From Candidatus Saccharimonadota bacterium (lineage in GTDB: Bacteria; Patescibacteriota; Saccharimonadia; Saccharimonadales; Saccharimonadaceae), in the NCBI GenBank assembly GCA_946893605.1, contig OX335598.1, positions 1 through 64,000 on the forward strand: a stretch of 64,000 nt of DNA, given 5' to 3'. Numbering within the stretch: position 1 is the first letter of the stretch; every line of letters begins with the position of its first letter. Below the pieces are notes generated by a model. That model had not been told where the DNA came from and searched no databases. It saw only the letters and a program-made list of their open reading frames with translations. This document shows positions 5,463-48,111 of the stretch, piece by piece. A program made the translations under genes and the position numbers.

Positions 5463-7176
5463 ATGAATGATGCCAAAGAAGAAGTGCGGGCGCGACTGAA
5501 CATCGAGGATGTGATTGGTGAGTATGTTCAGTTGAAGCGAGCGGGGCGCAATTTGAAGGGTTTAAGTCCGTTTACCGACGAGCGAACCCCAAGCTTTATG
5601 GTTAGCCCAGAAAAGCAGATTTGGCACGATTTTTCTTCTGGAAAAGGTGGCGATATTTTTACGTTTGTGATGATGGTGGAAGGAATGGATTTTCGTCAAT
5701 CGCTGGAGCATTTGGCTCGGAAGGCGGGCGTTGATCTGACTTTGTTTTCTAATGGCGACGGACGAACAGCCAAGCGTCGCGCCAGAGCCAGAGAAGCGCT
5801 TAAATTAGCAGCCAATTTTTATCAGCAGAATTTGGTAAAAAATTCATTAGCTCTGGATTATGTAGTTAAAAAACGGCGATTAAATCGTCAAACAATTGGT
5901 GATTTTTTGATTGGCTATGCGCCGGAGAATGGCGACACATTGACGAAAGCATTGGGAAAAAGAGGATTTTCTAGGCAGGAATTGGCGGACGCTGGCTTGT
6001 CGAATCGGTTTGGGTGGTGATTTGTTTCGTGGGCGAATGATGGTTGCGCTGAGTGACGGCAACGGAGAAGTCGTGGGATTTACGGGCAGAATTATTCGTG
6101 ACGATCCGCGCGCGCCAAAATACTTGAACACGCCGCAAACGCTGTTATTTGATAAATCGCGACATATTTTTGGTTTGCATCAAGCCAAAGAGGCGATTCG
6201 GAAAAGCGATGTGGCAGTGATTGTTGAGGGAAATTTGGATGTAATTAGCAGCCATCAAGCGGGCGTCAAAAACGTGGTTGCGACCTCTGGTACGGCGATG
6301 ACGACGCAACATTTGAAGTCGCTTAGTCGATTGGCGGGGCGGATTCGCTTGGCGTTTGATGGCGATCGAGCGGGAGTTAACGCAACGGAGCGCGCTATCA
6401 ATTTGGCGCAGGAAGTCGGCGTGGAATTGGAAGTGGTGAGCTTGCCTGATGGCGTCAAAGATCCAGACGAATTGATCCAAAAAGATCCAGCGCTTTGGCA
6501 AGCGGCGATTGACCAATCTCAGCCAGCGGTGGATTGGGTGATTGCTAGATACGCGGAAATGGAGAATTTGAAGTCGGCGGAAGGCAAGCGAAGATTTTCG
6601 ACCATTGCGCTGAGGATTGTCCGAGGCTTGAAAGATCCGGTGGAACAAGAGCATTATTTGTCGGTGATTTCTGAAAAAACCGGCGCGTCAATTACCGCAC
6701 TGAAGGCAAAATTGTCGAATGAAAAAGTCGCTGAGCATCAATTGAAAAAAGCGAAAATTGAGAAAGAAAAACCGACTCCAGTTCAGGATGAAACTGAGGA
6801 TATGCTGGCGGGGCTGGCGGCGAGTGAAAAATCTGTGCGGCGTTGGCTGGCGGTGGTTTCTGGCGAAATGTTGGATGATGACAACGCGCGGCAGTTGATT
6901 GGCTATTTGCGGAAGAACCCAGACGCGGATTTGGGCGAGGTTCCGCTGGACTTGCAAAAAATCGAACAGTATGTGAAAATAGTACAGTTGAAAAGTGAAA
7001 GTCGTTACGCCAATTGGGAGCAGAAAAGCTTGGACGAAGAGATGGCTCGGCTAGTCAGACAGATAACAATCAAACATCGCGAAAACAAAAAGAATCAACT
7101 ATTAACGCAGCTTAGAGAGGCTGAGGCGTCGGGTGATGAGGTTTTGTCTCCAGAATTTACGCCAGAGCTTAAATAA
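5463..7176 (+). CDS. dnaG: DNA primase (frame shift inside)
   Basis: Synthesises RNA primers for chromosome replication at the fork. The zinc-binding-domain fold, the RNA-polymerase core with TOPRIM (VIVEGNLDV, LAFDGDRAG) and a C-terminal helicase-interacting region are in the expected order. The zinc ligands are absent: the usual CPFH is SPFT and the usual CxxC is DFSS, and no cysteine occurs in the protein. The frame shifts near 6009-6014; removing one base from the TTT or GGG run gives LSNRFGGDLFRGRMM, the expected continuation. The gap to rpoD is 18 bases, the classical dnaG-rpoD arrangement. Confidence 0.93.
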
Positions 7177-32559: not shown

Positions 32560-33630
32560 ACCTAAACTCAACGACGTCATTTGGCTGCATGATGTAAGTT
32601 TTTCCTTCGGTGCGAATTTTGCCATTTTCGCGAGCCTTAACTTCTGATCCTGCTGCGACTAAATCGTTAAAATCGACAATTTGTGCGGCAATAAATCCGC
32701 GCTCAAAATCTGAGTGAATAACGCCCGCGGCTTGCGGTGCAGTCCAGCCCTTGTGAATTGTCCAAGCTCGGACTTCTTTTTCGCCCGCAGTTAAGTAGCT
32801 TTGTAGTCCGAGCGTATCGTAGGCCGCGTGAATAAGTTTGGCAAGTCCAGTTTCCTTGACGCCGTAGCTTTCTAATAGTTCTTTGGCGTCATTTTCAGAT
32901 AGGCCTTTCAATTCTTCCTCTAGTTTTGCGCAGACAAAGACGGTTTTTGCGGGACTTACAAGTTCGGTCAATTGACTCTGTAGATCGGAATTGTTCAATC
33001 CTTCCTCGTCGACATTAAATGCGTAAATAACGGGTTTGGCGGTAAGGAGGTGGAGGTCGGAAATTGCCTCAAAATCCACATCTGACAGGGCGGAAATTGG
33101 TACGCCTTTTTGTAAATTGTCGATTAAAGATTGCAGATATTCAACTTTTTGGCGAGCTTTGGATTTGCTTTGGCTTCTTTTTGAAGTTGAGGCAGGCGTT
33201 TTTCTTCGAGAGTTTGCAAATCAGCCAGAATCAGCTCAGTATTGATAATATCAATATCCTTTTTTGGGTCAATCGGTGCTTCATCATGGCGCAGAATCTT
33301 TGAATTCTCAAATGCACGAACAACGTGGACAATCGCGTCACACTCTCTGATATTGTGAAGAAACTTATTGCCCAGACCTTCACCCTTAGATGCGCCAGCA
33401 ACCAGCCCAGCGATATCGACGAAAGTGACGGTGGCTGGAATAATTTTTTGCGCGTGACAAAGATCGGCTAAAATTTGCAGGCGATTATCTGGCACGGGAA
33501 CAATTCCTGTGTTCGGCTCAATTGTCGCAAACGGATAATTGGCCGCCAAAATGTCGTTATTTGTTAAAGCGTTAAAAAGTGTCGATTTGCCAACATTTGG
33601 TAAACCAACGATTCCAATAGATAAACTCAT
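32549..33630 (-). CDS. ychF: Ribosome-binding ATPase YchF (frame shift inside)
   Basis: An Obg-family P-loop protein that prefers ATP and binds ribosomes. P-loop [26 protein letters not shown] and a C-terminal TGS domain ([21 protein letters not shown] region to the end) are in order. The frame shifts at a run of five T at 33146-33150 (A on the coding strand); one more base restores [17 protein letters not shown]. No start other than ATG 33630 is needed. Confidence 0.94.
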
Positions 33631-33658: not shown

Positions 33659-33667
33659 TGATATAAT
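33659..33667 (+). promoter_or_regulatory. Extended -10 promoter for the surface protein and pilus genes
   Basis: TGATATAAT ends seven bases before ATG 33675. It is divergent from ychF, 29 bases away. Confidence 0.6.
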
Positions 33668-33674
33668 TATAAGC

Positions 33675-36650
33675 ATGAGAAGAAAATACTCATTGCCTAA
33701 GGTGGGTATGTTGGCAATAGTAGTGGCTTTAGTTATTTCAGTAACGGCTTTTTTTATCTATACGTACGCGGTGCCAAGCTCGCCAAATTGGACGATAACT
33801 GGTAAATCCTGGGTTACTAAACAATTTAATCCAGAAGACACTACCAACTTCGGATCTAATTGGACTGTCGCTCCAGGGAGATTAAAGAATGTGAAGCCCG
33901 GAGATACGGTTGATTGGTGGTATAGTCTTTTTGTTAGCGGCGGGCCTACTGACAATGTCGTGACTGGAGTTCAGCAGGATGTATTCGATTTAAGCTCAAA
34001 TCAGCCGATGGATAATGATGTCAGTCTGAATGATAGGGGAGCTTGGCATAATGAAGATCCTCGATGGTTTAACGTTATGACGGATTGGAAGGATTATGCT
34101 TGGAAGCGAATGAATAATCCAGCGGGAGTGGATTATCACACTACCTCTATGGAGGCGTTGAACGGTAAATCTCGGCTTGAGGATCTTCATGGCGAGCTTG
34201 GAAAGAATAAATTCATGTATACGCGAGTCATTAAAAGAGAGGATATGGGCAAGCGTATCTGTCAGCGAATTTATTGGAGCAAGCGCAATTCTTTGCCGGT
34301 TTCGGGATGGGGCTATTCGCAGTATGCATGTGTAGAGGTTCCGTATGATTATGACGTAGAGCCTTCGGTCAGTGTTAACTCGGATTACATTGACGCAGAA
34401 AATGTCACGAAAATTGAGGGAATAAATGCTGGGTTGAATAATAAGGGCACGTCAAAAACTCAAAATTCTTCGTATGCACTTGCGCGATTTGTTGTCAGAG
34501 GGGCTGAAGTTTCGGGACTTACAGGCAAGAGCGATGTGGTTTCATTGCCTGGTGGTACTGCTGATAGTGATTGGCCGTGTGCAATTGTGCGACTGATTAA
34601 AGGACAATATAGAGATAGCTTAAATATTGATAGTGGCGCGTGTGGAAAAATTGTTCAAAACACTGGCAGTCAATTAAACACCGGTCAGACTCCAGTGGCT
34701 ACAAATCAGATAGATAATCTGGATAGGATTAAGCTAAGCGCTAACGACAGCCTATGTTATGTGGTTATGGTCAGTAATTACAACGGTTCGGCGCCTTCGA
34801 CGGATTTTAAATACGCGGTTAAGTGTATCAGATCCTCAAAAAGACCGAAGGTTCAGGTTTGGGGCGGTGATATTAAGACAGATAAAGAGGTTATTACCAG
34901 CAGGACATCAAACAATGTGAATGTTCCTGATGAGAATCTTAGCCGTATTGAGCTAGATAAGACCTCTATACGAGCAAAGGGGCTGTGGGGTACAGGTTTA
35001 GACAAAGATGGTAATAAAATTGGAGGCGATGTTCACTTTAGCCCTGGCGAATACGGCTTTAAGGGGGGCAACGACGCTGATCCGCACTGGTCTATAGTAT
35101 GTGCCGAAGATCAGTATGGCGGTAATGGAAATCAAAGGGCATACGATAAGAGCGGTAATGTGGCTGATTTACCCAGTTGTCATGGCGATGCAACTAATCT
35201 AAAAGACGACTATCAAGCCAGAACGGTCGTAACGACACAGTGGCGCGATCCTAGCGGGGGTGATGTATTGCAAGATGGTTATATTACATGTACACCCGAT
35301 TCTATGTATCGCAGTATAGTTGGTGACGCATCGCTCGTCTATAATCCTGATTTTTGTAAGAGGGGCGTTTGGAGAACATCTGACTCTGCGAAGTGGATTA
35401 GTATAAATAGTTTTGGTCGACATACGCATTCTAATAGTAAACCAGACCCAGCGAATCTAAACTGTCGGGATAATACTCGCCCTATAGTAGAAATTATTTC
35501 GTGTTCAAATACGTACGTCTTTAGATTGAAAGGTGTCAACTTGGGAGCGCTAAAAGATGCTAAGAAGCTGGAAATTGGTTTTAATGGAGCTGTGGATAAC
35601 TTTGTTAGAGTGAAGATTAATGGTCATGAAATGAAGGTGTTGGGTAATGAAAACGGCGCAAGACCTGAAGGGACTCAGTACTCTGGTTGGGGTCTTCCGG
35701 GTTATGCTGGAAATTCTCGATTTACTGCTGAGACACAGCCGGGCACTGTTTTATACGAGAATAACAACTTCATCGATATTTATGTAAAATCTAACCCATC
35801 GCATATGGGGCTACTGATCGAGGATATAACATTGGCGTATAAGATGGCCTATACGAATCAGAATGTGTACGGTTCTTGGGGCGAATATGGAATTATTGCT
35901 AATGGTAAGGCAGATTCGGCTTCTGGGGCTGGATTGTCGTCATCGTTTAATGGTCGCTCGGGAGTGACTCCACGTGACTACAACAAGCTAACTTTCGCCA
36001 ATATTCCAAAGTATGGTAATTTCAGTAGCACCAGTTCAGTTCCAGATAATTTTACTTTACCGTCAGTTCGTGGGGCGAGAGGTAATATCTCTGGCAATGT
36101 AGATGTGAATAGTCTAGCTTCGGGTGAATATAACGCTGGAAACGTAACCTTAACGGGGTCAAAATTAAGTGTAGGCAAGAGTATAGTCATAAAGTCCTCG
36201 GGCGTAGTTAGGATTTCGGGCGACTTACTATACACAGACACGAATGATGTGCGTCAATTGCCACAACTAATTATCTACGCGAAAAATATTATCATAGAGC
36301 CTTCGGTTGGAGAGGTGAATGCTTGGTTGATTACTCAGAAAGACGGATATGTTAGTACTTGTGGCGTGGTAATTAGCTTCGGAGATTGGCTAAGTGGAGT
36401 TTCTGAATCTTCTTGCGGTAAGAAGCAACTGAAGGTTAACGGACCAATTAAAACTGGACGCTTGTTCTTGCGACGAACGTACGGCGGAAAACATGCTTCA
36501 TCTGCAAAGAATGATCCGAATATGCATCCTGGAACTCCAGCAGAAATCATCAATTTGAGGGCTGACACTTATATTTGGGCTTACAATAATTATCGAAACA
36601 CTGGCGCGATTAGTACGATGAATGTTCGCGAATTGCCGCCAAGATATTAA
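33675..36650 (+). CDS. Large secreted protein leading the type IV pilus cluster
   Basis: Not recognised as a named family. The 991-residue chain has a basic start and one hydrophobic segment at about 12-32 (signal peptide or anchor), then a long Gly/Asn/Asp/Tyr-rich region with many cysteines likely in disulfides, and a C-terminal region (about 800-991) of beta-strand-like SGN..L.SG..V.I repeats. It ends 44 bases before pilM. Position and composition suggest a pilus-associated adhesin or tip protein; this is inference, and PilY1 similarity was not seen. Confidence 0.7.
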   Translation: MRRKYSLPKVGMLAIVVALVISVTAFFIYTYAVPSSPNWTITGKSWVTKQFNPEDTTNFGSNWTVAPGRLKNVKPGDTVDWWYSLFVSGGPTDNVVTGVQQDVFDLSSNQPMDNDVSLNDRGAWHNEDPRWFNVMTDWKDYAWKRMNNPAGVDYHTTSMEALNGKSRLEDLHGELGKNKFMYTRVIKREDMGKRICQRIYWSKRNSLPVSGWGYSQYACVEVPYDYDVEPSVSVNSDYIDAENVTKIEGINAGLNNKGTSKTQNSSYALARFVVRGAEVSGLTGKSDVVSLPGGTADSDWPCAIVRLIKGQYRDSLNIDSGACGKIVQNTGSQLNTGQTPVATNQIDNLDRIKLSANDSLCYVVMVSNYNGSAPSTDFKYAVKCIRSSKRPKVQVWGGDIKTDKEVITSRTSNNVNVPDENLSRIELDKTSIRAKGLWGTGLDKDGNKIGGDVHFSPGEYGFKGGNDADPHWSIVCAEDQYGGNGNQRAYDKSGNVADLPSCHGDATNLKDDYQARTVVTTQWRDPSGGDVLQDGYITCTPDSMYRSIVGDASLVYNPDFCKRGVWRTSDSAKWISINSFGRHTHSNSKPDPANLNCRDNTRPIVEIISCSNTYVFRLKGVNLGALKDAKKLEIGFNGAVDNFVRVKINGHEMKVLGNENGARPEGTQYSGWGLPGYAGNSRFTAETQPGTVLYENNNFIDIYVKSNPSHMGLLIEDITLAYKMAYTNQNVYGSWGEYGIIANGKADSASGAGLSSSFNGRSGVTPRDYNKLTFANIPKYGNFSSTSSVPDNFTLPSVRGARGNISGNVDVNSLASGEYNAGNVTLTGSKLSVGKSIVIKSSGVVRISGDLLYTDTNDVRQLPQLIIYAKNIIIEPSVGEVNAWLITQKDGYVSTCGVVISFGDWLSGVSESSCGKKQLKVNGPIKTGRLFLRRTYGGKHASSAKNDPNMHPGTPAEIINLRADTYIWAYNNYRNTGAISTMNVRELPPRY

Positions 36651-36694
36651 AAGTTTGCAAATTAAAACGCTAATGTATATAATTATTATTAGTT

Positions 36695-37741
36695 ATGAAA
36701 TTAGCAAAAGGGTTGGGCGAATTCTTCGGACTGGACATCGATACGAATGCGGTGCGGGTGGTTCAATTGTCTCGTACTGGCACGGGATGGAGTTTGTCTC
36801 ATTACGGTTATACGCCAGTTGATTCTAAGATAACGAGTGGCGATTCTCCAGAGTCTAAGCGACGCTTGGGTGAGGCAATTATGACCGCTGTTGGTCAGGC
36901 TGGGATTAAGGCGTCCAATGTAGCTGTCGGTTTGCCGTCAAATAAGACATTCTCGACTATTATTGATGTGCCGAAAGTTCCCGAGCAAGAACTAAAGGCG
37001 ATGATGAAGTATCAAATTGATCAATATATCCCAATGTCTTTGGATGAGGCAGAAGTTGACTGGGCTTTATTGGGCGATAGTTTGCATGCTCAGAATCAGT
37101 ATGAGATTTTGCTGACAAGTACAGCGAAGTCTTACGCAGAAGAGCGTTTGGAACTGGTTGAAAATCTCGGCTTTAATGTGATTGCTGAGGAGCCGAATGC
37201 TATTGCTATGGTTCGCTCTTTATCAGCTACCGATTCTCAGGATGCGCGTTTGATTATCAATATGGGCGAAAATTCAACGGATTTGGCGGTTGTCTACAAC
37301 GGGGCGCCGCGGCTTATTCGTATGATTCCGACAGGGCTTTCGTCTTTGGTTCGATCGGCGGTTCAGAATCTTAGCGTCCAGGAAGATCAAGCTCGTCAAT
37401 TTATTTTGAAATTTGGTTTGGCGCCGGATAAATTAGACGGTCAAGTGTTAAGGGCAATTGATTCAACTCTCGACAATTTTTCTTCAGAGCTAGTAAAATC
37501 TATAAAGTTTTTCCAAACTCGATATCCAAGCGTAGCAGTTTCTGGAATTTTGTTATCAGGGTTTGGTTCAGCTATCCCGCAACTTGATGGATATGTGATG
37601 AATAAAACTGGAGTCCAGTCAATTGCCGCAGATCCGTGGCAGCGTGTTCAAGTTTCTCAGTCAGATCAACAGCAATTGGCGCCGATTGCTTCAGAATTCG
37701 CCATTGCCGTAGGTCTGGCACAAAGGAGTAATATATCATGA
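36695..37741 (+). CDS. pilM: Type IV pilus assembly protein PilM
   Basis: An actin-like ATPase-fold protein on the cytoplasmic face of the pilus inner-membrane platform. FFGLDIDTNAVRVVQL, LIINMGENSTDLAVV and LLSGFGSAIPQLDGY are the family phosphate and adenosine motifs. It overlaps pilN by four bases. The start is ATG 36695; a TATAAT at 36678-36683 lies 11 bases upstream. Confidence 0.92.
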   Translation: MKLAKGLGEFFGLDIDTNAVRVVQLSRTGTGWSLSHYGYTPVDSKITSGDSPESKRRLGEAIMTAVGQAGIKASNVAVGLPSNKTFSTIIDVPKVPEQELKAMMKYQIDQYIPMSLDEAEVDWALLGDSLHAQNQYEILLTSTAKSYAEERLELVENLGFNVIAEEPNAIAMVRSLSATDSQDARLIINMGENSTDLAVVYNGAPRLIRMIPTGLSSLVRSAVQNLSVQEDQARQFILKFGLAPDKLDGQVLRAIDSTLDNFSSELVKSIKFFQTRYPSVAVSGILLSGFGSAIPQLDGYVMNKTGVQSIAADPWQRVQVSQSDQQQLAPIASEFAIAVGLAQRSNIS

Positions 37742-38463
37742 TTGAGATAAATCTTCTCCCAAACGTTAAGCGCGAGCTATTAAAGACTCGGGTTATGCGC
37801 AATCGGGTTATTTCGATATCGTTCTTGGTAGGCGGTGCTTCGATTGCGGCAGTAGTTGTTTTGGCGTTGATTTTGGGTAGCCAAATTGCAGCCGAGGCGG
37901 TCCAGAACGGAGTTATTAAAGATAGAAACGATAAATTGATGGCGGTCGAAGATCTCAATAAGGTTGTAACGATTCAACATCAATTGACAAAGATCAATGA
38001 GCAACATTCTGGAAAGAAGCTTAATTCAAGGATTTTTGATGTTGTAACGGCGGTTAATCCGGTTGCACCAAATAATGTTAGTTTTTCGGATATAAAAGTC
38101 AATCCTGGGTCAAAAACTATTACTCTGGAGGGTAGCGCGGTTAATGGCTATAGTGCGTTAGAGACCTTAAAGAAAACCATCTTGAATACGAAGGTTCAGA
38201 CTACTGACGGCGATAAAAGTTCCGAGGTTAGTCTAACTAAGGAGATAAAAGATGGCGATACTAGTTTTGGGGAGAACTCAGAAGGTAAAAAAGTGTTGCA
38301 ATTCTCGTTCTCGTTTGAATACGCAGAAGAATTACTAGCGCCTGCAAATAATGGCACAGTTTCCGTATTGACGCCGACTGGCAAGGTTGATGTGACGGAC
38401 TCACGTCAGGGAATTCCAGATAGCTTGTTTAAGAGTAACTCGAAAAAACAGGAGAAGAAATAA
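37738..38463 (+). CDS. pilN: Type IV pilus assembly protein PilN
   Basis: An inner-membrane protein that links PilM to PilO. The N-terminal EINLLPN motif binds PilM; a membrane helix at about 25-48 follows and the rest is a periplasm-side or outer-face domain with ferredoxin-like strands. A charged Lys/Ser C-terminus ends SNSKKQEKK. It overlaps pilO by one base. Confidence 0.88.
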   Translation: MIEINLLPNVKRELLKTRVMRNRVISISFLVGGASIAAVVVLALILGSQIAAEAVQNGVIKDRNDKLMAVEDLNKVVTIQHQLTKINEQHSGKKLNSRIFDVVTAVNPVAPNNVSFSDIKVNPGSKTITLEGSAVNGYSALETLKKTILNTKVQTTDGDKSSEVSLTKEIKDGDTSFGENSEGKKVLQFSFSFEYAEELLAPANNGTVSVLTPTGKVDVTDSRQGIPDSLFKSNSKKQEKK

Positions 38464-39131
38464 TGGCGACTGATAATAAAGAAGTTGCAATACGCAAGCG
38501 TCAACAGATTGACTCATCGAAAAAGACTATGTTTATTTTTGTGGCTTCTGCGGCATTTTTGGCGGGAATTGCGTTAGTTGTTAGTATATTTTTGGTGCAA
38601 CAAATTGTATTTCATTCGAAGATTCTTCTGGAGAAGCAAAATACGATTTCTCGTTTAGATAAAAACCTGTCGTCGGTTGACGAGCTAAAGAAGAATATCC
38701 GAGTTTTAGACACGAATACTGCTCTTAACTCTATAAAATCGAGCAGCGAAAGTAATGCTCTTCAGACGGTACTAGATGCATTGCCAGATAATGCGAACGC
38801 CGACGCTCTTGGTGCTTCGTTGAAGAACAAATTTATCGACACGACTACTGGCGTGACTATTCAAAATCTGACCGTTGCTCAATCTGGATCTGATAGTGAA
38901 AGCTCTGAGTCAACATCTGAAAATGCCGTATCATTTACTATGGAAGTGAGTGGTCCAGCTGAAAAATTGAAAGAATTGTTAACTAAGTTAGAGGCGTCTA
39001 TTCGAGTCATTGATCTAAAGACCGTGGAAATCCAGCGAAATGAGGATAGATTGAGCTTGGTGGTTCGAGGTGTCGCTTATTACGAGCCAGCACAAACAAT
39101 ACAATTAGAGAATAAGGTGGTTAAGCCATGA
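38463..39131 (+). CDS. pilO: PilO-like pilus assembly protein
   Basis: A membrane helix at about 22-48 is followed by a coiled-coil-like segment and a ferredoxin-like domain (SFTMEVSGPAEKLKELLTKLE), as in PilO. Sequence similarity is weak; position between pilN and pilB supports the call. It overlaps the next small gene by four bases. Confidence 0.7.
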   Translation: MATDNKEVAIRKRQQIDSSKKTMFIFVASAAFLAGIALVVSIFLVQQIVFHSKILLEKQNTISRLDKNLSSVDELKKNIRVLDTNTALNSIKSSSESNALQTVLDALPDNANADALGASLKNKFIDTTTGVTIQNLTVAQSGSDSESSESTSENAVSFTMEVSGPAEKLKELLTKLEASIRVIDLKTVEIQRNEDRLSLVVRGVAYYEPAQTIQLENKVVKP

Positions 39132-39358
39132 AGAAAACAGATATAGCAATGGTAGTATTGATCGCGGGTGTGGGTGTGGCAATCGGCTATATTGTCGCCT
39201 CTAATATCTCGTTCTTAAAAGTCCCAGAATCTGGCACAAAAGTACAGACTATTCGAGAAATATCACCTGACGTCGAAAAGCCAAACCCAGCGATTTTTAA
39301 TAATAATGCGATAAATCCAACTGTTGAAATATTCGTAGGTCAAGATGCAGCCAAATAG
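39128..39358 (+). CDS. Small membrane protein in the pilus operon
   Basis: Seventy-six residues: one membrane helix (about 6-28, IAMVVLIAGVGVAIGYIVAS) and a polar outer tail without cysteines. It is not recognised. Its place after PilO is where PilP sits in diderm operons, but the protein lacks a lipobox and the PilP domain, so it is not PilP by sequence. ATGA overlap with pilO indicates coupling. Confidence 0.65.
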   Translation: MKKTDIAMVVLIAGVGVAIGYIVASNISFLKVPESGTKVQTIREISPDVEKPNPAIFNNNAINPTVEIFVGQDAAK

Positions 39359-39371
39359 AGAAGGGGTGTAA

Positions 39372-41132
39372 ATGGCTTTACTGACGGACGACATCCAAGA
39401 TAAGTTGATCGAGCTGCTCGTAAACGAGGGGCTTATTGAGAAGTCTGTCATTGATGATGCCCTAAAGCGTGCCTCTGAGAGCGGCAAGCCACTGTTTAGC
39501 TTACTTAGTGAAGAGGGGTTGCTTGACAATGAGCTATTAGTTCATGGCGTGGCTCAAGTTTCAGGCGTGCCGTATGTCAATCTATCGAATAGCGTTATTA
39601 GTCAGGATATTTTATCTCTATTGCCGTCCGACGTTGCTGAGAGATTTATGGCTGTGCCACTGGCCGAAGTTCAGAACCGACTAGCAGTAGCGATGATCGA
39701 TGCGAATAATGTTCAAGCGGTGGACTATTTGTCGAATCGCATCCAACGTCCGATAAAAGTATTCATGGCTTCAGAAGAGAGTGTCCGCCATGTCTTGGAT
39801 CAATATAAGACTGACTTGTCATCTGTCAATGTGGCTGCACAGGCTTCGCAGGAAGAGTCTTTGTCGGAAGCTGGCAATATCAAAACAATTGTTCAGGATT
39901 CGCCGATATCACGAGCGTTGTCGACAATTTTGGAATACGCAGTAAAGAGTCACGCGTCCGATGTGCATATTGAGCCATTAGAGAAGGCTTTGAAGATTCG
40001 CTGCCGAGTTGACGGTGTTTTGCGTGAGATTATGCAGCTCCCAAAGAGTATCGAGCCGGCGTTAGTTAGTCGTATTAAGATTCTTTCCAATCTGAAAATT
40101 GACGAGCATCGAATTCCTCAGGACGGTCAATTTGCGGTTAACGTTGCAGGTAAAGAGGTTGACCTTCGTATTGCTATCTCTCCTGTCGTTTGGGGTGAAC
40201 AAGTGGTTATTCGTCTGCTTGATAAGAGTGGAAGTTCTTTCAATTTGGAAGACATGGGCTACGCTGGGCGTGCATTAAGAACGATTCGTAAGGGAATTAA
40301 GCGACCAAATGGAATGATTTTGACGTCGGGTCCAACTGGTTCTGGTAAGTCAACGAGTTTGTACGCGTTGATTAAAGAGATTAAAGACGACACTGTGAAT
40401 ATTGTGACGCTTGAGGATCCAGTTGAGTATAAGATGGATGGCGTCAATCAGATTCAGGTGAATGCGGAAGTTGGTTTGACGTTTGCTTCTGGACTGCGTT
40501 CAATTTTGCGTCAAGACCCAGACATTGTGATGGTTGGTGAGATTCGCGATAATGAAACAGCAAATTTGGCTATTCAGGCGGCTTTAACGGGGCACTTGGT
40601 TTTCTCGACACTTCACACAAATTCCGCCGCTGGTGTGCTGCCGCGTTTGTTGGATATGGGAATTGAGCCGTTTCTTATAGCTAGCACGGTTAACACAATT
40701 ATCGGTCAGCGTTTGGTGAGGCGAGTGGCGCGCCGTCGGGATATTTATCAATCATCACCGCTGGAAACGCAGGCAATTCGCGAGGCGGTTGGTGGATTAT
40801 TGCCGCAAACAAGGGAGCAGGTTGCTCAATATGCGCAAGATTTGGGATATGAAAGTTTGCCGCTAGCGACGCAGGCGTCGTTTGCCTTGGCAAAAGGAAA
40901 AGATACGCCGCAAACTCCTCGCGGTTATGCTGGGCGAGCTGGTTTGTATGAGGTCATGGATATTACTGAAGAGATTCAGAATTTGATTGTTAAGCGCGCG
41001 ACCTCAGCGGAAATCCAGCGAACGGCAATTCAACAGGGTATGATTACGATGCGTCAAGATGGTTATTTGAAGGCGTTGAACGGAATAACGACAATAGAAG
41101 AAGTTAATAGGGTAGCGGCGGATACCGCATAA
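39372..41132 (+). CDS. pilB: Pilus extension ATPase PilB
   Basis: A hexameric ATPase that powers pilus extension. An N-terminal GspE/MshEN-type domain precedes the motor. Walker A GPTGSGKS is at about residue 319, the Asp box and the His box (FSTLHTNSAAG) follow, with Walker B VMVGEIRDNETA. The usual four-cysteine zinc motif after QRLVRR is missing (the segment reads VARRRD). AAGGGG precedes ATG 39372. Confidence 0.95.
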   Translation: MALLTDDIQDKLIELLVNEGLIEKSVIDDALKRASESGKPLFSLLSEEGLLDNELLVHGVAQVSGVPYVNLSNSVISQDILSLLPSDVAERFMAVPLAEVQNRLAVAMIDANNVQAVDYLSNRIQRPIKVFMASEESVRHVLDQYKTDLSSVNVAAQASQEESLSEAGNIKTIVQDSPISRALSTILEYAVKSHASDVHIEPLEKALKIRCRVDGVLREIMQLPKSIEPALVSRIKILSNLKIDEHRIPQDGQFAVNVAGKEVDLRIAISPVVWGEQVVIRLLDKSGSSFNLEDMGYAGRALRTIRKGIKRPNGMILTSGPTGSGKSTSLYALIKEIKDDTVNIVTLEDPVEYKMDGVNQIQVNAEVGLTFASGLRSILRQDPDIVMVGEIRDNETANLAIQAALTGHLVFSTLHTNSAAGVLPRLLDMGIEPFLIASTVNTIIGQRLVRRVARRRDIYQSSPLETQAIREAVGGLLPQTREQVAQYAQDLGYESLPLATQASFALAKGKDTPQTPRGYAGRAGLYEVMDITEEIQNLIVKRATSAEIQRTAIQQGMITMRQDGYLKALNGITTIEEVNRVAADTA

Positions 41133-41143
41133 AAGGAGGAAAC

Positions 41144-42213
41144 ATGAATAATCAAGAATTGCGAATTGAGATTTTGCTGGAAGAAGTCGTTAAGAAGCGA
41201 GCTTCGGACCTTCATATTCAAGTTGGTTTGCCACCAATGCTGCGAATTGACGGTTCACAATGCCGGCCGCCGGAACTCAACCATTGGACGAGCCTGCAGT
41301 TGAGAGATTGGTATTTCAGATTCTTGATGAAGATCAGCGACAGATTTTGCTAAAAGATAAGGAATTCGACTTTTCGTTTGCGTTTGGTACACTGGGGAGA
41401 TTCCGAGTTAATGCCTTCCATGAGCGTGGCAATTTGGCTGCAGCCCTACGTTTGATTCCAAATGAAATTAAGTCGGCGTCTGAACTGGGTATGCCACCGG
41501 TTGTTAATACGTTTGCGGATTTTCCTCGCGGTTTGGTGTTGGTCACTGGTCCAACTGGTTCTGGTAAATCAACGACTTTGGCGGCGCTGGTTGATAAAAT
41601 TAATTCTGAGCGTTCACAGCATATTATTACCATTGAAGACCCTATCGAGTTTACTCACAAGTCGAAAAAATCAGTGGTAGTTCAGCGTGAGGTTCATTAC
41701 GACACTTATTCCTTCTCTGCGGCTTTACGCTCGAGTCTTCGCCAAGACCCAGATGTTGTGCTGATTGGTGAGATGCGCGACCTTGAAACGATTTCAGCAG
41801 CGATTACAATTGCTGAAACTGGACACTTGGTGTTTGCAACGCTACACACAAACTCCGCAGCGCAATCAATTGACCGTATGATTGACGTGTTCCCGCCACA
41901 CCAGCAGCCACAGATTCGCGCTCAGCTCAGTAATATCTTGATGGCAATTTGTTCGCAGCGACTAGTCCCAGCTATTGGTGGTGGACGAGTCGTGGCGGCA
42001 GAGGTTTTGATTGCTAATCCAGCGGTGCGCAACATTATTCGCGAAGGTAAATCTCATCAGTTGGACGCCGTGATTCAGACTGGTGCTGACCAGGGAATGC
42101 AGACGATGGATCGAACTTTGGTCAATTTGGTGCAGAACGGTACTATTACGTATGATAGTGCTCGTGAATTTGCTGTCGATTTGACGGAATTTGAGAGGTT
42201 GATGAGGGGGTAA
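41144..42213 (+). CDS. pilT: Pilus retraction ATPase PilT (frame shift inside)
   Basis: A hexameric ATPase for pilus retraction. It has KRASDLHIQVGLPPMLRIDG, Walker A GPTGSGKS, LIGEMRDLETI and AIRG-like C-terminal region replaced here by FERLMRG. The frame shifts near 41257-41260 (one missing base), joining RIDGS to MPAAGTQPLDEPAVERLVF. With PilB nearby it implies both extension and retraction. AAGGAGG precedes ATG 41144. Confidence 0.93.
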
Positions 42214-42216
42214 TAA

Positions 42217-43431
42217 ATGAAAAAATACAATTATGAAGCCAGAGATAGCGCAAGTAATAAAATCGTTAAATCAGTTGTTCAGGCTGATAGTGAAAATGCT
42301 GCCGCAAAGCTTTTGACGGCTCAGGGCTTTGTGCCGTTAAAAATTGAATTACAAGACGATAAAACAAATTTCTTTGCGAGGTTTTCTGGTAGAATCACCA
42401 CTAAGGATAGGGTTGTATTTACTCGTCAGTTAGCAACTCTTATTGGAGCTGGGCTACCTTTGGCACAAAGTCTTCGAACAGTTCAAGAGCAGACTACGAA
42501 TAAGCGTATGCAGGAAATAGTCCAGGAAATTATCTCTGACGTCGAAGGCGGTAAATCCTTGTCTGATTCGTTCGCAAAGCATCCAGAAGCTTTTAATAAA
42601 GTTTATGTAGCTTTGATCTCGGCCGGCGAAACGTCAGGTACAATGGATGATTCGCTTAAGAGGTTAGCTGCTCAGCAGGAAAAAGAGGCTGCTATGATGA
42701 GTAAGATTAGAGGTGCTATGATGTATCCGTCAATTGTCTTGGTAGTGATTATCTTAGTTATCGGATTTATGTTATTCACGGTCGTTCCGCAAGTTGAGGG
42801 TCTGTATCGTGACTTAAATAAGGGGTTGCCATTTGTAACTCTTATGATGATTAAAGTGGCGAACTTTTTTAGTAGTCTTTGGTGGCTTGTTATATTGGCA
42901 ATGATTATCGGCGGTTATTTCCTAGCACAATATTTGAAAACTGAGCAGGGAATTAGGACTAAAGACATCTTTAAGCTCAATGTCCCGCTATTTAAAGGAA
43001 TGTTCAGGAAGATGTACATGGCGCGATTTGCCAGGACCAGTCAAGTTCTTCTGAGTACTGGTGTGCCGATGCTTGATATGCTTCGTATTACGTCTGATGC
43101 TGTCAATAATGTGATTATTAGCGAAAGTATACTTCGCGCATCAGACAAGGTGAAGGGCGGCAAGGCCTTGTCGGCTTCTTTATCTAATGAAGATTATTTC
43201 CTAGCAATGGTGCCGCAGATGATTAAAATCGGTGAGCAATCGGGTAAAATTGATGAGATGATGGGTAAGACCGCTCAAGTTTATGAAGATGAGCTTGATG
43301 AGGAAATTCGCGCCTTGTCGACGGCGATAGAACCAGTCTTGATGGTCTTTTTGGCTATAGTTGCCGGTACGATGGTCGCGGCTATCTTGCTTCCAATCTA
43401 TAGTTTGGTTGGCAACATCAATATTCGCTAG
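42217..43431 (+). CDS. pilC: Type II secretion/pilus inner-membrane protein PilC
   Basis: The platform protein that couples motor ATPases to pilin insertion. Two GspF domains repeat: FTRQLATLIGAGLPLAQSLRTV at about 68-90 and FARTSQVLLSTGVPMLDML at about 270. Three membrane segments (about 170-195, 220-240, 375-400) match the family. The length (404) is normal. It starts three bases after pilT. Confidence 0.95.
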   Translation: MKKYNYEARDSASNKIVKSVVQADSENAAAKLLTAQGFVPLKIELQDDKTNFFARFSGRITTKDRVVFTRQLATLIGAGLPLAQSLRTVQEQTTNKRMQEIVQEIISDVEGGKSLSDSFAKHPEAFNKVYVALISAGETSGTMDDSLKRLAAQQEKEAAMMSKIRGAMMYPSIVLVVIILVIGFMLFTVVPQVEGLYRDLNKGLPFVTLMMIKVANFFSSLWWLVILAMIIGGYFLAQYLKTEQGIRTKDIFKLNVPLFKGMFRKMYMARFARTSQVLLSTGVPMLDMLRITSDAVNNVIISESILRASDKVKGGKALSASLSNEDYFLAMVPQMIKIGEQSGKIDEMMGKTAQVYEDELDEEIRALSTAIEPVLMVFLAIVAGTMVAAILLPIYSLVGNINIR

Positions 43432-43513
43432 ACTGACTTATATTTTTAGTGTATTATAAACGTAAGCATTTTTTGCGTAAATATAGGTAAACCATAGAAA
43501 GGTGGGAAATCTA

Positions 43514-43993
43514 ATGACAAAAAACGATAATAAAAAAGGATTTACGATCATCGAGGTTGTTCTAGTCTTGGCTATTGCTGGACTTATCTTTGCGATGGTA
43601 TTTATCGCATTGCCAGCTTTGCAGCGTAGCCAGCGTGACCAGTCAAGGAAGAACGACGCTTCAACAGTTGCTGCAGCTATTACCAATTGGAATTCAGCTA
43701 ACCGTAACGGTGGCACGTTTAATGAAGAATCTCTACGTAAGTATGTCGATAAGCTTGATCAATACGACAAGTCTTCAGAATTAAAGGTTGCTACACCTGG
43801 TGCTTCAATGTCAGTCGCTGGCAATGAAATCAAGGTTATGCGAGGTAAGAAATGTCCTTCTAGCACGCCAGCTCCATCTGCTGACGATCCAGCAAATATA
43901 ACTTTGCAAAACGGATCTTCACGCAACGCAGCAGTTGTAGTTCTGTTGGAAAATAACGGTTCTCAAAAGCAATTGTATTGCCAGGACGTATAA
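43514..43993 (+). CDS. Type IV major pilin (class III signal peptide)
   Basis: A short basic leader ends in KKG followed by FTIIEVVLVLAIAGLIF, the prepilin peptidase site and hydrophobic stalk with Glu5. A globular head of about 130 residues has two cysteines near the ends (KKCPSS, LYCQDV) that can form the D-region disulfide. It is the first pilin after pilC and has its own terminator, so it is likely the major subunit. ATG 43514 follows AAAGGTGGG. Confidence 0.88.
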   Translation: MTKNDNKKGFTIIEVVLVLAIAGLIFAMVFIALPALQRSQRDQSRKNDASTVAAAITNWNSANRNGGTFNEESLRKYVDKLDQYDKSSELKVATPGASMSVAGNEIKVMRGKKCPSSTPAPSADDPANITLQNGSSRNAAVVVLLENNGSQKQLYCQDV

Positions 43994-44010
43994 TCCATAG
44001 ATAAATTACA

Positions 44011-44040
44011 AATCAGCCTCGGTATGGGGCTGATTTTTTT
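44011..44040 (+). terminator. Intrinsic terminator after the major pilin
   Basis: AATCAGCC pairs with GGCTGATT and is followed by seven T. It may set a high pilin-to-minor-pilin ratio if partly read through. Confidence 0.75.
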
Positions 44041-44065
44041 ATGGTTTTTTGTTACCATAAGAAGT

Positions 44066-44947
44066 ATGATTAAGTTTGTACTAGTGGGATTTTTAGGGGC
44101 TATTTTAGGTAGTTTCGCTGGAGCGCAAATTTGGCGCTTGCGGGCTCGTCAATTGGCGGAAGATAAAAAAGCCGGAGAAAAGGTTGACCAAAAGGAATTA
44201 AAGAAATTATCTCCATTGATAAAAAAAATTTCCAAAGACAGATCTCGCTGTTTATCTTGCGGACATGAGCTTAAGTGGTGCGATTTGATTCCTGTGGTAA
44301 GTTGGGTTGCTGGATTGGGGCGGTGCAGATATTGCAAAGCGTTTATCGGTTGGACGGAAATCTTGCTAGAATTAGTGATGGCTGGACTGTTTGTCGCGTC
44401 TATGGTTTTTTGGCCGGGATCGTTAACGAATATCTGGCAGATCGTATTGCTAGTTTTATGGTTGGCAAGTTTGGTACTGCTGGCGATTTTATTCGTCTAT
44501 GACCTCAGATGGCTACTTCTTCCAGATGTAATTAATATTCCGTTTATCATTCTTGGCGCTATTTTTGCGGGAATAAAAGTATGTCTAGCTGGCGATTTCT
44601 CAAAAAGCTTGATGACGTTATTTGGGTCGATTGCGATTCTGAGCGGAATATATATGGTGCTATATTTATTCTCGAAATATCGTTACGGGGAAGATAAAAC
44701 TTGGATCGGTTTTGGTGATGTTAAGCTTGGACTTGGATTGGGTTTGTTCTTAGGAAACTGGCTTTTGGCGTTTGCTGCTTTATTTATCGCAAATCTTATC
44801 GGCACGCTTCTTGTCTTGCCATCAATGATGCGAGGAAAATTGCAAGCAACTTCACGGATATGCTTCGGTCCATTGCTTATCGTAGGGTTTTTACTCGCTT
44901 GGTTCTTTAGCCGACAAATTTTAGAGTGGGGCTTTCTTATTGTCTAA
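44066..44947 (+). CDS. pilD: Prepilin peptidase PilD
   Basis: An aspartyl membrane protease that cleaves and N-methylates prepilins. The cytoplasmic zinc-binding CLSC...CRYC set is present, with GLLLP-like WLLLPD and GFGDVKLGLGLG aspartate motifs. Eight hydrophobic segments. ATG 44066 is preferred over an upstream in-frame ATG at 44024 that lies within the terminator. TACCAT seven bases upstream may be its -10. Confidence 0.93.
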   Translation: MIKFVLVGFLGAILGSFAGAQIWRLRARQLAEDKKAGEKVDQKELKKLSPLIKKISKDRSRCLSCGHELKWCDLIPVVSWVAGLGRCRYCKAFIGWTEILLELVMAGLFVASMVFWPGSLTNIWQIVLLVLWLASLVLLAILFVYDLRWLLLPDVINIPFIILGAIFAGIKVCLAGDFSKSLMTLFGSIAILSGIYMVLYLFSKYRYGEDKTWIGFGDVKLGLGLGLFLGNWLLAFAALFIANLIGTLLVLPSMMRGKLQATSRICFGPLLIVGFLLAWFFSRQILEWGFLIV

Positions 44948-44979
44948 GTAAAAAGCGCTTATGTTATAATGGAGAAGTG

Positions 44980-45720
44980 ATGGGCAATAAACAAAAAGGT
45001 TTTACTATAATTGAAGTGATTTTGTTTGTGGCTATTTCTGGTTTGCTGACCTCTATGTTGATGGTCGGCGTAAGTATGTCAATCAATCGCCAGCAATATC
45101 GCGATTCGGTGCAGTCTTATGCTGGTTTTTTGCGAAATGAGTACTCGAAAGTGGTCAATGTTGAGAACGAGCGATCTAAGGGCACTTGTCCAATTGAAGG
45201 CTCTGATGGTCGAGCTGAAACTCTACGCGGTCAATCTGATTGTGTGATTGTCGGTCGCTATATTACCACTGAAGGTTCTCTGGGCTCAACGGACGGCAAT
45301 CTGTACAAAACTTATCCAGTTTATGCCTATAGGCCAGATAAGGGTAGTGTATGGACTTATAGACGTGGTGCTGAGTCTGATAAATATATCGTTAATTGGC
45401 AAGCAAAAACTAGGTTTTCTAACCAAGCCAAGGATAGTGCGTATATTTCTATTTTGATGTACCGCCATCCAGAGACGGGGCAGTTGGATATTAGAACTGA
45501 CACGAGCCGATTCGGTGATAATTTGACTGATTTCGTCAATAATAAAAATAGTGCTGGAGTTGTGCAATCTGCTGGCGAGCAGCGTCAACAGAGGGAGATC
45601 TGTGTTTATGATGACGGCTGGCTACCAGGAGAGAGATTATCTATTTTTCTACGATCGCATGCAGGTTCTGCTGATGCTGTAGTTATGGGTAATGCTACAG
45701 GAGGTTGTGCTGATGCGTAA
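44980..45720 (+). CDS. Type IV pilin-like protein (minor pilin)
   Basis: The leader ends NKQKG before FTIIEVILFVAISGLLTSML. The head is about 220 residues with cysteines in GTCPIEG, SDCVIV, REICVYD and GGCADA. TATAAT at 44965-44970 and GGAG lie before ATG 44980; the longer ORF start at 44926 is not used. It overlaps the next gene by eight bases. Confidence 0.82.
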   Translation: MGNKQKGFTIIEVILFVAISGLLTSMLMVGVSMSINRQQYRDSVQSYAGFLRNEYSKVVNVENERSKGTCPIEGSDGRAETLRGQSDCVIVGRYITTEGSLGSTDGNLYKTYPVYAYRPDKGSVWTYRRGAESDKYIVNWQAKTRFSNQAKDSAYISILMYRHPETGQLDIRTDTSRFGDNLTDFVNNKNSAGVVQSAGEQRQQREICVYDDGWLPGERLSIFLRSHAGSADAVVMGNATGGCADA

Positions 45721-46294
45721 GGTTAACAGAGGCGACACACTTGTCGAAGTGCTGCTTGGAGTAACCATTTTTAGCCTAGTCGCCGTTATTGCATTAGAAA
45801 CCATGAACCGCGGGATGGCTATTGCTCAGTATTCTTTGGAGACGACGTTGGTTCGCCAACAGGTTGACGCTCAGGCTGAAATGTTAAGATATGCTCACGA
45901 TATGAAAAATGACACCTGGAAGAAATTGGTAGACAATAATTCGGTGAGTGTTTCTGTTGTTAATGGCAGTGAAGGAAATTTGGGTGCTGAAAAATGTCCT
46001 GATGATTTTTCTACGAAAGAGTTTGCTTTGGCTGCGACGCCTTCGCTCGCTTCGAAGATTAGTATATTGAACAATCCTGGAGATTATAAAGCAGCAGAAA
46101 CATACGCGCGGGTTGATAGCGATGCTAAAAAAACGTATGGAATATCAGTTAGATTAGTTAAGCCGAGTACGACTGTCGGGAGCAGGGATAGCAATAAATA
46201 TGATGCGTACATAAAAGCGTGCTGGATGCCAGTTGGCAGTAAAATGCCGGCGACTATTGGTACGATTGTGAGGTTATATGATTCGGGGCTATAG
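45713..46294 (+). CDS. Type IV pilin-like protein (minor pilin, PilV-like)
   Basis: A short leader with the GDTLVEVLLGVTIFSLVAVIAL site and stalk. The rest is a head of about 165 residues with two cysteines. ATG 45713 has an AGGAGG site, which lies inside the previous gene. Overlaps the next gene by 17 bases. Confidence 0.8.
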   Translation: MRKVNRGDTLVEVLLGVTIFSLVAVIALETMNRGMAIAQYSLETTLVRQQVDAQAEMLRYAHDMKNDTWKKLVDNNSVSVSVVNGSEGNLGAEKCPDDFSTKEFALAATPSLASKISILNNPGDYKAAETYARVDSDAKKTYGISVRLVKPSTTVGSRDSNKYDAYIKACWMPVGSKMPATIGTIVRLYDSGL

Positions 46295-46976
46295 AAAAGG
46301 ATTTACACTTATCGAATTGATGCTCGCCATGAGTTTTATCTCTGTCCTTTTGTTGTCGATTGCGATGGTGGGTATCCAGGCGGGAAAAATGTATAGCAGA
46401 GGAATTGTGCTTCGTGATGTTAATCAAGCGGGGCGAGATATTTCAGATACTATTCGACGCGATTTTCTTCAGGCAAATGCCGAAAAAATTGACACTACAG
46501 GCTTGAGAGTGCCGAATAATAGCAATTGGTCAACTGGTCGACTTTGTCTTGGTTCTCATTCTTATGTGTGGAATAATCCAAAGTATTTGGACGATCCTAG
46601 CTTGTTGGGCGGAAATAGTCTGTTTAAGGTTAATGGCAACCCAGTGAATTTGGTGCGTGTAGTTGATGCGGATAGCGGATTATGTAAAAAAGATGCTTCT
46701 GGCAAATATCTGGAAACCGTCGATCTTGCGAAATCATCCAATTTGCTCAGGTCTATCAATAGCGGTGATGGTTCAATTGGCGTACACGAAGTTACGTTAG
46801 AAAAGATTACATCGGATAATTCAAGAGAGGCGCTGTATAAATTGACTTTTACGCTGGGGACGAGCAAGATGAGTGAAATAAGGAATTCTTCCTGTAAAGC
46901 TCCGACTGAAGATGATAGCAATTTTGAGTTCTGTGCTATAAATAAATTTGAGATGATTGTGAGGACAAATGGGTAA
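46278..46976 (+). CDS. Type IV pilin-like protein (minor pilin, PilW-like)
   Basis: RKGFTLIELMLAMSFISVLLLSIAM is a prepilin leader and stalk with Glu5. A head of about 200 residues contains four cysteines. Neighbours overlap on both sides, so it is one of a coupled set of pilin-like genes that probably prime or cap the fibre. Confidence 0.82.
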   Translation: MIRGYRKGFTLIELMLAMSFISVLLLSIAMVGIQAGKMYSRGIVLRDVNQAGRDISDTIRRDFLQANAEKIDTTGLRVPNNSNWSTGRLCLGSHSYVWNNPKYLDDPSLLGGNSLFKVNGNPVNLVRVVDADSGLCKKDASGKYLETVDLAKSSNLLRSINSGDGSIGVHEVTLEKITSDNSREALYKLTFTLGTSKMSEIRNSSCKAPTEDDSNFEFCAINKFEMIVRTNG

Positions 46977-48111
46977 AAATGCGCGACAATCAGGTGCTGT
47001 ATCTCTTTTTGCGGTTATATTCGGCGCGATGTTGCTGACTATTGTTACTATTGGGTTTATCAAGCTGATGATTATGGATCAGCGACAATCCTCGAATAAT
47101 GATCTGTCGCAGAGTGCTTATGACGCGGCTTTGGCTGGGGTTGAGGATGCTAAGCGTGTGGTTCGTGCCGCCCAGACGGGCAATATTCAAGCGGCGGGAG
47201 TGCTGAATGGTCCAATTAATTGTAATATGGTCGCGGCATCTGGTGTCGTTGGAGGCAGTTCTTCTGGCGAAACTATTATTAAAACTGGTACAGATGCGGG
47301 TAAAAAATTTGATCAAGCATATACTTGTGTAAAAATCACTATGAAATCTCAAGATTTTATATATAAGTCTATTGAAGAAAAATCTCAAATTGTGCCATTA
47401 CGTGCAACTGGTTCATTCAATAAGATATCTATCGAATGGTATAGGCGCGATGATGAGAGCAATTTGAATGGCGCTAACGCCGCTAATACTGAAATATCCA
47501 CTTCTGGGGATTTGCCGACGAAAAACAACTGGAATGCTAATTCGCCACAATTGATGCGCGTGCAGCTTATTAACCCAGGCGCCACCTTTAATTTAGCGGC
47601 GTTAGATTCAACTGGCGTCACTTCTTTCTTACGACCGAACGTTTTAAGGTCAGATGTAGCAAGTCAGAATGGTACTGCTGTTTCTGGTAAGATTTCTGAT
47701 CATCCACGCGCAACTGACGGGAATGAACATAATAATGGAACAAGTGTGGTTTCTTGTAGCAAGACATTCAAGTTTTCTGGCGAATATTCGTGTAAAGCGG
47801 TGATTGATGTTGATGAGATTCCAGCTGGTAGCGAAACAGCACTCTTAAGGTTATTGCCTATATATAAAGGTGGCAGTGTGAAGATTTCTCTCCAGAAAAC
47901 CGACGGAACAATTGTCAATTTTGATGGAGTTCAGCCAATTGTCGATTCCACGGGGCGGGCAAGTGATTTGTTTAGAAGAGTTGAAGCTCGATTGCAAATA
48001 GGAGATGATTTCGCATATCCTAATAATGCGGTTGAATTAAAGAATAGTCTATGCAAAGACTTTTCTGTATCTGGTGGCGGATCTGCTACTGTAGGTCAAT
48101 GTAAGCCATAG
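46969..48111 (+). CDS. PilX-like pilus protein
   Basis: The N-terminus (GAVSLFAVIFGAMLLTIVTIGFIKLM) looks like the PilX-type stalk, without the canonical G-F/E5 cleavage site. A head of about 340 residues has cysteines (INCNM, YTCVK, VSCSK, YSCKAV, SLCKD, GQCKP). It ends two bases before the xer stop on the other strand. A tip-complex role is inferred from position. Confidence 0.75.
   Translation: MGKNARQSGAVSLFAVIFGAMLLTIVTIGFIKLMIMDQRQSSNNDLSQSAYDAALAGVEDAKRVVRAAQTGNIQAAGVLNGPINCNMVAASGVVGGSSSGETIIKTGTDAGKKFDQAYTCVKITMKSQDFIYKSIEEKSQIVPLRATGSFNKISIEWYRRDDESNLNGANAANTEISTSGDLPTKNNWNANSPQLMRVQLINPGATFNLAALDSTGVTSFLRPNVLRSDVASQNGTAVSGKISDHPRATDGNEHNNGTSVVSCSKTFKFSGEYSCKAVIDVDEIPAGSETALLRLLPIYKGGSVKISLQKTDGTIVNFDGVQPIVDSTGRASDLFRRVEARLQIGDDFAYPNNAVELKNSLCKDFSVSGGGSATVGQCKP

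Follow-up and report, generated by a model that had tools for sequence, protein, structure and literature searches.

Little is understood of the way in which ultrasmall epibionts select their hosts and keep hold of them. The DNA analyzed here comes from a tiny parasitic oral bacterium (Candidatus Saccharimonadota, family Saccharimonadaceae), whose genome is a single 701,908-bp contig (OX335598.1). The first 64,000 nucleotides of this contig will be referred to as the window. A gene for a 991-residue protein is located there (positions 33675–36650, + strand), directly in front of the genes of the T4P-1 pilus. The locus raises the question of whether this protein is part of the pilus, and whether it could serve in catching the host.

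The 991-residue open reading frame (ORF) noted in a preliminary description of the window was confirmed. The end given there, 36694, corresponds to the end of the gene at 36650 plus the 44-bp spacer up to the ATG of pilM at 36695. A −10-like box (TATAAT, 33662–33667, + strand) is found 7 nt 5′ of the ATG of the gene, and is also present in TM7 HOT-352 SAG3, the nearest relative. The ortholog in SAG3 is almost full-length and has 96% identity to the protein, and the dN/dS ratio between the two sequences is 0.11 (988 codons). Therefore, the ORF is a real gene under selection. The amino acid composition is as unusual as had been described. Compared to the other ORFs of the window, the contents of Cys (1.4 versus 0.6%), Trp (2.3 versus 0.8%), Tyr (4.5 versus 2.8%) and Asn (8.3 versus 4.5%) are higher by a factor of roughly 1.6 to 3. 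The 14 cysteines make up seven neighboring pairs (196/219, 302/323, 361/384, 476/502, 539/561, 597/610 and 896/914), and the genome contains a VKOR gene (104814–105200), whose product is able to form disulfides. The signal-like helix is present as well. Residues 1–32 (33675–33770, + strand) contain a hydrophobic N-terminal helix, and the corresponding segments of the orthologs, in an AxA-type cleavage context, are mostly ordinary signal peptides. From these sequence features, the protein appears to be secreted.

The first machinery gene of T4P-1, pilM (36695–37741, + strand), was assigned by its match to PF11104. The remaining cluster (37738–48111, + strand) contains pilN, pilO, pilB, a frameshifted pilT, pilC, pilA1, pilD, three minor pilins and a pilX-like gene. 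The order of the pil genes in SAG3 is identical up to the end of its contig, inside a fourth minor-pilin-like gene. The genome also has a second PilM homolog (G000:C1:524491–525483, 25% identity), likely belonging to T4P-2, and a weak third match (G000:C1:469399–469827) that may be FtsA-like.

Relative to SAG3, pilT is frameshifted after codon 38 (41144–41260, + strand), and its two parts, in different frames, are 100% and 99.7% identical to the SAG3 sequence. A frameshift at 33142–33181 (− strand) splits ychF into two ORFs, and this gene is one ORF of about 360 residues in SAG3 and in most relatives whose locus includes it; the split is probably an assembly error. The two frameshifts suggest small indels in the assembly, and its completeness score (83%) would be reduced by such errors. 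A dnaG-like gene (5463–7176, + strand), split into two ORFs that overlap and differ in frame, is possibly a third case.

The position of the 991-residue gene was compared across genomes by means of its C-terminal domain (CTD), with a profile covering the last 263 residues of the protein and built from an alignment of relatives. The preliminary description had suggested looking for the gene upstream of pilM in other Saccharibacteria, and in most relatives it is indeed found there. In 98 of the 118 family genomes with both positions listed, the end of the CTD is within 235 bp (median about 59) 5′ of pilM and on the same strand. The relative is located elsewhere than next to pilM in about one sixth of the genomes, in some of them far away. 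The gene precedes pilM in 15 of 17 genomes from other families of the order, and the same arrangement is observed in a genome from another family of the class (G556, locus L120). In a distant family (G350, locus L123), a pilin-like run is followed by a few genes, the CTD protein and then pilM. Two other genomes (G018 and G098) have the CTD gene adjoining the pilX-like gene instead. CTD distances track those of pilM (Mantel r 0.67, p≤0.0002). The CTD gene is a long-standing resident of the T4P-1 locus. The reading that we favor, though with the balance about even, is that the protein is secreted, stabilized by disulfide bonds and a modular component of the surface of T4P-1, the retractable pilus.

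The preliminary description had also placed the gene at the head of the pilus operon. Physically it does come first, before pilMNOBTC, pilA, pilD and the minor pilins, but it is separated from pilM by a conserved promoter of the latter (TTTGCA-N18-TATAAT, 36654–36683, + strand), with an extended −10 element, TATGTATAAT. This element, about 9 nt 5′ of the pilM start, is matched at 9 or more of 11 positions in 17 of 30 sequences, compared to 0.9 expected from shuffles. Similar −10 boxes are also found where different genes precede pilM. The nearly fixed 9-nt spacing of TATGTATAAT suggests that pilM transcripts of the family have little or no leader. Since pilM has its own conserved promoter, the 991-residue gene is possibly a separate transcription unit. 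No terminator-like site was found between the two genes; read-through from the 991-residue gene into pilM can occur but is not required.

In most relatives, a second protein is encoded directly 5′ of the CTD gene (loci L034, L035, L039, L040, L043, L044, L048, L051, L124 and L125). It has 136–303 residues and a single membrane helix at the N-terminus; TPR repeats (TPR_2, E 1.3e-8) are present in several relatives. Its gene abuts the start codon of the CTD gene or overlaps it, often by 1–4 nt, and in G058 and G320 the two genes are tandemly duplicated together. This partner is absent from the locus in the window lineage and SAG3, and a search for a relocated copy elsewhere in the genome of the window found none (best E 0.04).

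The separate pilM promoter, the TPR membrane protein at the start codon and the distance from pilM in some relatives would all fit a cell-surface adhesin that is linked to the pilus only genetically. Such a protein would remain attached to the cell itself, through wall polymers or, in relatives, through the TPR membrane partner. It would bond to the host at close range once the pilus has brought the cells together; two-step binding with close-proximity adhesins has been proposed (PMC12206443). We regard this alternative as doubtful, as the synteny with pilM is very strong across the order and beyond it, and pilX is the neighbor of the gene in G018 and G098. The C-terminus also argues against it. 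In the protein and its orthologs, the last residues are ELPPR[YF] or a sequence close to it, no helix follows, and neither an LPXTG motif nor a C-terminal membrane helix with a charged tail is found in any of them. The ending was considered as a general sorting signal and rejected, because ELPPRY followed by a stop occurs only once in the genome. A surface component of T4P-1 itself remains the reading that we prefer.

The CTD is nearly as widespread as pilM within the Saccharimonadaceae. Of 198 genomes searched in the family, 174 were found to contain it by profile search, mostly in a single copy, and pilM is present in 178 of the same genomes. A tally for the order Saccharimonadales gives 165 of 198 genomes, again mostly with a single copy. 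Matches were obtained in 42 of 287 genomes across the phylum, those outside the order being mostly partial, and some genomes have pilM with the CTD undetected. Searches with the whole protein found relatives in 30 of 61 genomes. Tandem or second copies are present in G145, G191, G058, G320 and G105, with both members of some pairs 5′ of pilM; such duplicates may provide two heads for one pilus system. In line with the preliminary description, no family could be matched. There was no accepted match for the protein or the CTD in Pfam, NCBIfam, PHROG or PDB sequences, no phage relative by tblastn, and no description of the CTD family in the open literature searched. DUF7305, in one member, was too weak to be considered (E 0.13). 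The CTD defines a family that is undescribed in the libraries searched.

The protein can be divided into a conserved tail and a series of changing front modules. After the signal segment, residues 36–223 (33780–34343, + strand) form one or more N-terminal β domains in the model and are very variable across the genus. Residues 224–405 (34344–34889, + strand) form an Ig/FnIII-like domain, which includes the highly conserved Cys361/Cys384 pair and ends in PKVQxWGGD. They are followed by a mobile module, residues 430–728 (34962–35858, + strand), with the pattern DPHW…WI…CxDP…DN…VNG and a jelly-roll core at about residues 612–724. The CTD, residues 729–991 (35859–36647, + strand), contains the Cys896/Cys914 pair and ends in ELPPRY. 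The mean pairwise identity within the genus is 18.7% for the N-terminal 180 residues, 32% for the Ig domain and 46.7% for the CTD, compared to 73% for pilM. One ortholog (G032) has a VWA domain (E 2.3e-7), and one relative (G003) a Listeria-Bacteroides repeat. Within the genus, the 430–728 module is found in the window, SAG3 and G004. Beyond the genus, it is found in G102 (another genus), in G143, where it is N-terminal, and in G340 (another family), where it is directly before the CTD and pilM. Since its position differs among these three, the module is a shuffled unit. The front modules ahead of the CTD differ between species and are exchangeable. Between the two closest strains, dN is 0.044 for the module, the highest in the gene and among the pilus-cluster stretches compared, 0.011 for the CTD and 0.0025 for pilM. 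The module has a dN/dS of 0.16, which indicates faster change with no sign of positive selection.

A near-universal, mostly single-copy gene with a CTD conserved across the order could also encode an extracytoplasmic factor for T4P-1 assembly or gating, which would act in minor-pilin priming or passage through the envelope and for which adhesion would be a side role at most. Priming of pili is also a function of PilY1 (PMC13190605). The upstream TPR partner of the relatives has a parallel in other bacteria, where TPR proteins such as PilF/PilW help to assemble pili. However, most of the length of the 991-residue protein consists of variable, shuffled β modules, superfluous for assembly, and the window lineage does without the TPR partner. 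We consider such a role distinctly unlikely, and the favored assignment to the pilus surface is retained.

The structure of the protein was assessed with two AlphaFold2 runs, in which the mean confidence is low and three parts are usable. The first part, residues 226–390, is similar to the FnIII domains of RbmA and the β-sandwiches of transglutaminases (Z score of 9.9), a likeness that is generic. The Ig domains that dominate a fold search with the full-length model (integrins, complement and RbmA) were likewise read as generic β-sandwich similarity. The second part is the jelly roll of residues 612–724 (pLDDT about 67–82, with a weaker loop inside). It resembles the sugar-binding jelly roll of GH2 β-galactosidases and β-glucuronidases (Foldseek E 4.2e-4; Z score of 8.3 and rmsd of 3.6 over 103 residues) and CBM15 (Z score of 7.4). 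In the third part, the core of the CTD is a stack of short strands, with pLDDT mostly 90–97, and the CTD is predicted to be a β-solenoid. The models thus bear out the β-rich C-terminal region of the preliminary description. The sole match to the CTD among those listed is the solenoid of ComZ (6qvi_B; Z score of 7.9 and rmsd of 4.5 over 175 residues), which is taken as a lead, since this Z score is borderline, at a level where common arrangements appear, and was obtained with a model whose mean pLDDT is 59.5. A fold search of viral models gave nothing at E≤0.001. Folds missing from the match lists were not counted as excluded.

ComZ is a proposed tip pilin of Thermus thermophilus with a β-solenoid, and it binds DNA (PMC6561018). 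Saccharibacteria are naturally competent (PMC10633639), so the 991-residue protein could by its CTD fold be a pilus-linked DNA receptor of the kind proposed for ComZ, but this is highly improbable, as the DNA-contacting lysines of ComZ are located between its solenoid and a pilin domain that the 991-residue protein lacks, and the variable front modules look polymer-binding rather than DNA-binding.

In the favored reading, as a surface component of T4P-1, the protein would be exported by Sec, and the CTD would dock on the tip complex of minor pilins and PilX; in relatives, the membrane TPR partner may interact with the CTD instead. The front modules (in the 991-residue protein, the Ig-like pair and the sugar-binding-like jelly roll) would extend outward and attach to a polymer of the host actinobacterium, and retraction by PilT would then pull the epibiont onto the host. 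The location at the tip or surface, the docking of the CTD and the binding of host polymer are inferred. The layout of the protein, a fixed tail with interchangeable heads, resembles that of a pilus-tip or surface adhesin and is expected of a target-binding protein, which makes the protein a strong candidate for catching hosts. The suggestion of a role in host recognition is consistent with the fast-evolving module and its sugar-binding-like fold, and is graded here as plausible.

In Nanosynbacter lyticus TM7x, T4P-1 corresponds to TM7x_00415–00475 (PMC12206443), and TM7x_00415 is pilM (PMC10768705). The gene before pilM is outside the published T4P-1 list, because this list starts at pilM; from the conserved gene order, it is likely to be the ortholog of the 991-residue gene. 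T4P-1 of N. lyticus is essential and is thought to drive twitching. Host binding has been assigned to the non-retracting T4P-2, with PilX2 as the proposed adhesin (PMC12206443, PMC10768705). With the family of the 991-residue protein, T4P-1 gains a candidate adhesin, and the family offers a marker whose head modules could be matched against the host range of cultured strains. More tentatively, and with somewhat less confidence than in the placement on T4P-1, the family may be a Saccharibacteria-wide replacement for PilY1: a solenoid-based protein that acts at the tip and in the priming of T4P-1, carries exchangeable heads for carbohydrate binding, is paired with a membrane TPR partner and determines the actinobacterial host that an epibiont can grip.

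A comparison can be made with four known systems. The predicted fold of residues 612–724 is shared with the N-terminal sugar-binding domain of GH2 enzymes and with CBM15. In contrast to these, there is no sequence match, no GH2 family match and no catalytic TIM barrel in the protein, only the jelly-roll part being matched. In its large size and the absence of a PilD signal, the 991-residue protein is like PilX1 and PilX2 of N. lyticus, non-canonical T4P proteins that have been compared with PilY1; a jelly-roll-like domain has been described in PilX1 (PMC12206443). The 991-residue gene is a different gene, at the opposite end of the cluster. Its product was also compared with the pilX-like protein of the window, with no detectable similarity (BLASTP E 7.0).

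The preliminary description had called the gene unrelated to known pilus machinery. This holds by sequence, but the CTD model resembles the ComZ solenoid and the layout of the protein resembles that of PilY1. The CTD model aligns with ComZ at a borderline Z score, with no sequence match to it or to any other PDB sequence. In the pilin ComZ, the solenoid is an insertion within the pilin fold. In comparison, the solenoid here would be the C-terminus of a Sec-type, multi-domain protein. The PilD-type methylation motif (PF07963) is not matched by the 991-residue protein, whereas pilA1 passes the cut-off, and the N-terminus of the model does not have the long helix plus sheet of a pilin.

The closest parallel in organization is with PilY1/PilC (PF05567). 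PilY1 proteins have a constant C-terminal propeller and variable N-terminal parts, with a VWA domain in a third of those compared (PMC13190605). Both PilY1 and the 991-residue protein are large, disulfide-prone and encoded with a T4aP system and its minor pilins, and the 991-residue protein, like PilY1, would be exported by Sec. Both have a constant C-terminus and a variable N-terminus, which includes a VWA domain in some PilY1 members and in the G032 ortholog here. There are two differences, however. The constant domain is a predicted β-solenoid instead of the PF05567 β-propeller; PF05567 gave no match to the protein itself and is absent from the families to which 19 orthologs and 45 CTD sequences were matched. 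The gene is located before pilM and not inside the minor-pilin set, although it is near pilX in two genomes. By the family test the 991-residue protein is no PilY1. Its logic is that of PilY1, although the constant domain is another one: the constant end would be on the pilus and the variable end would contact the target.
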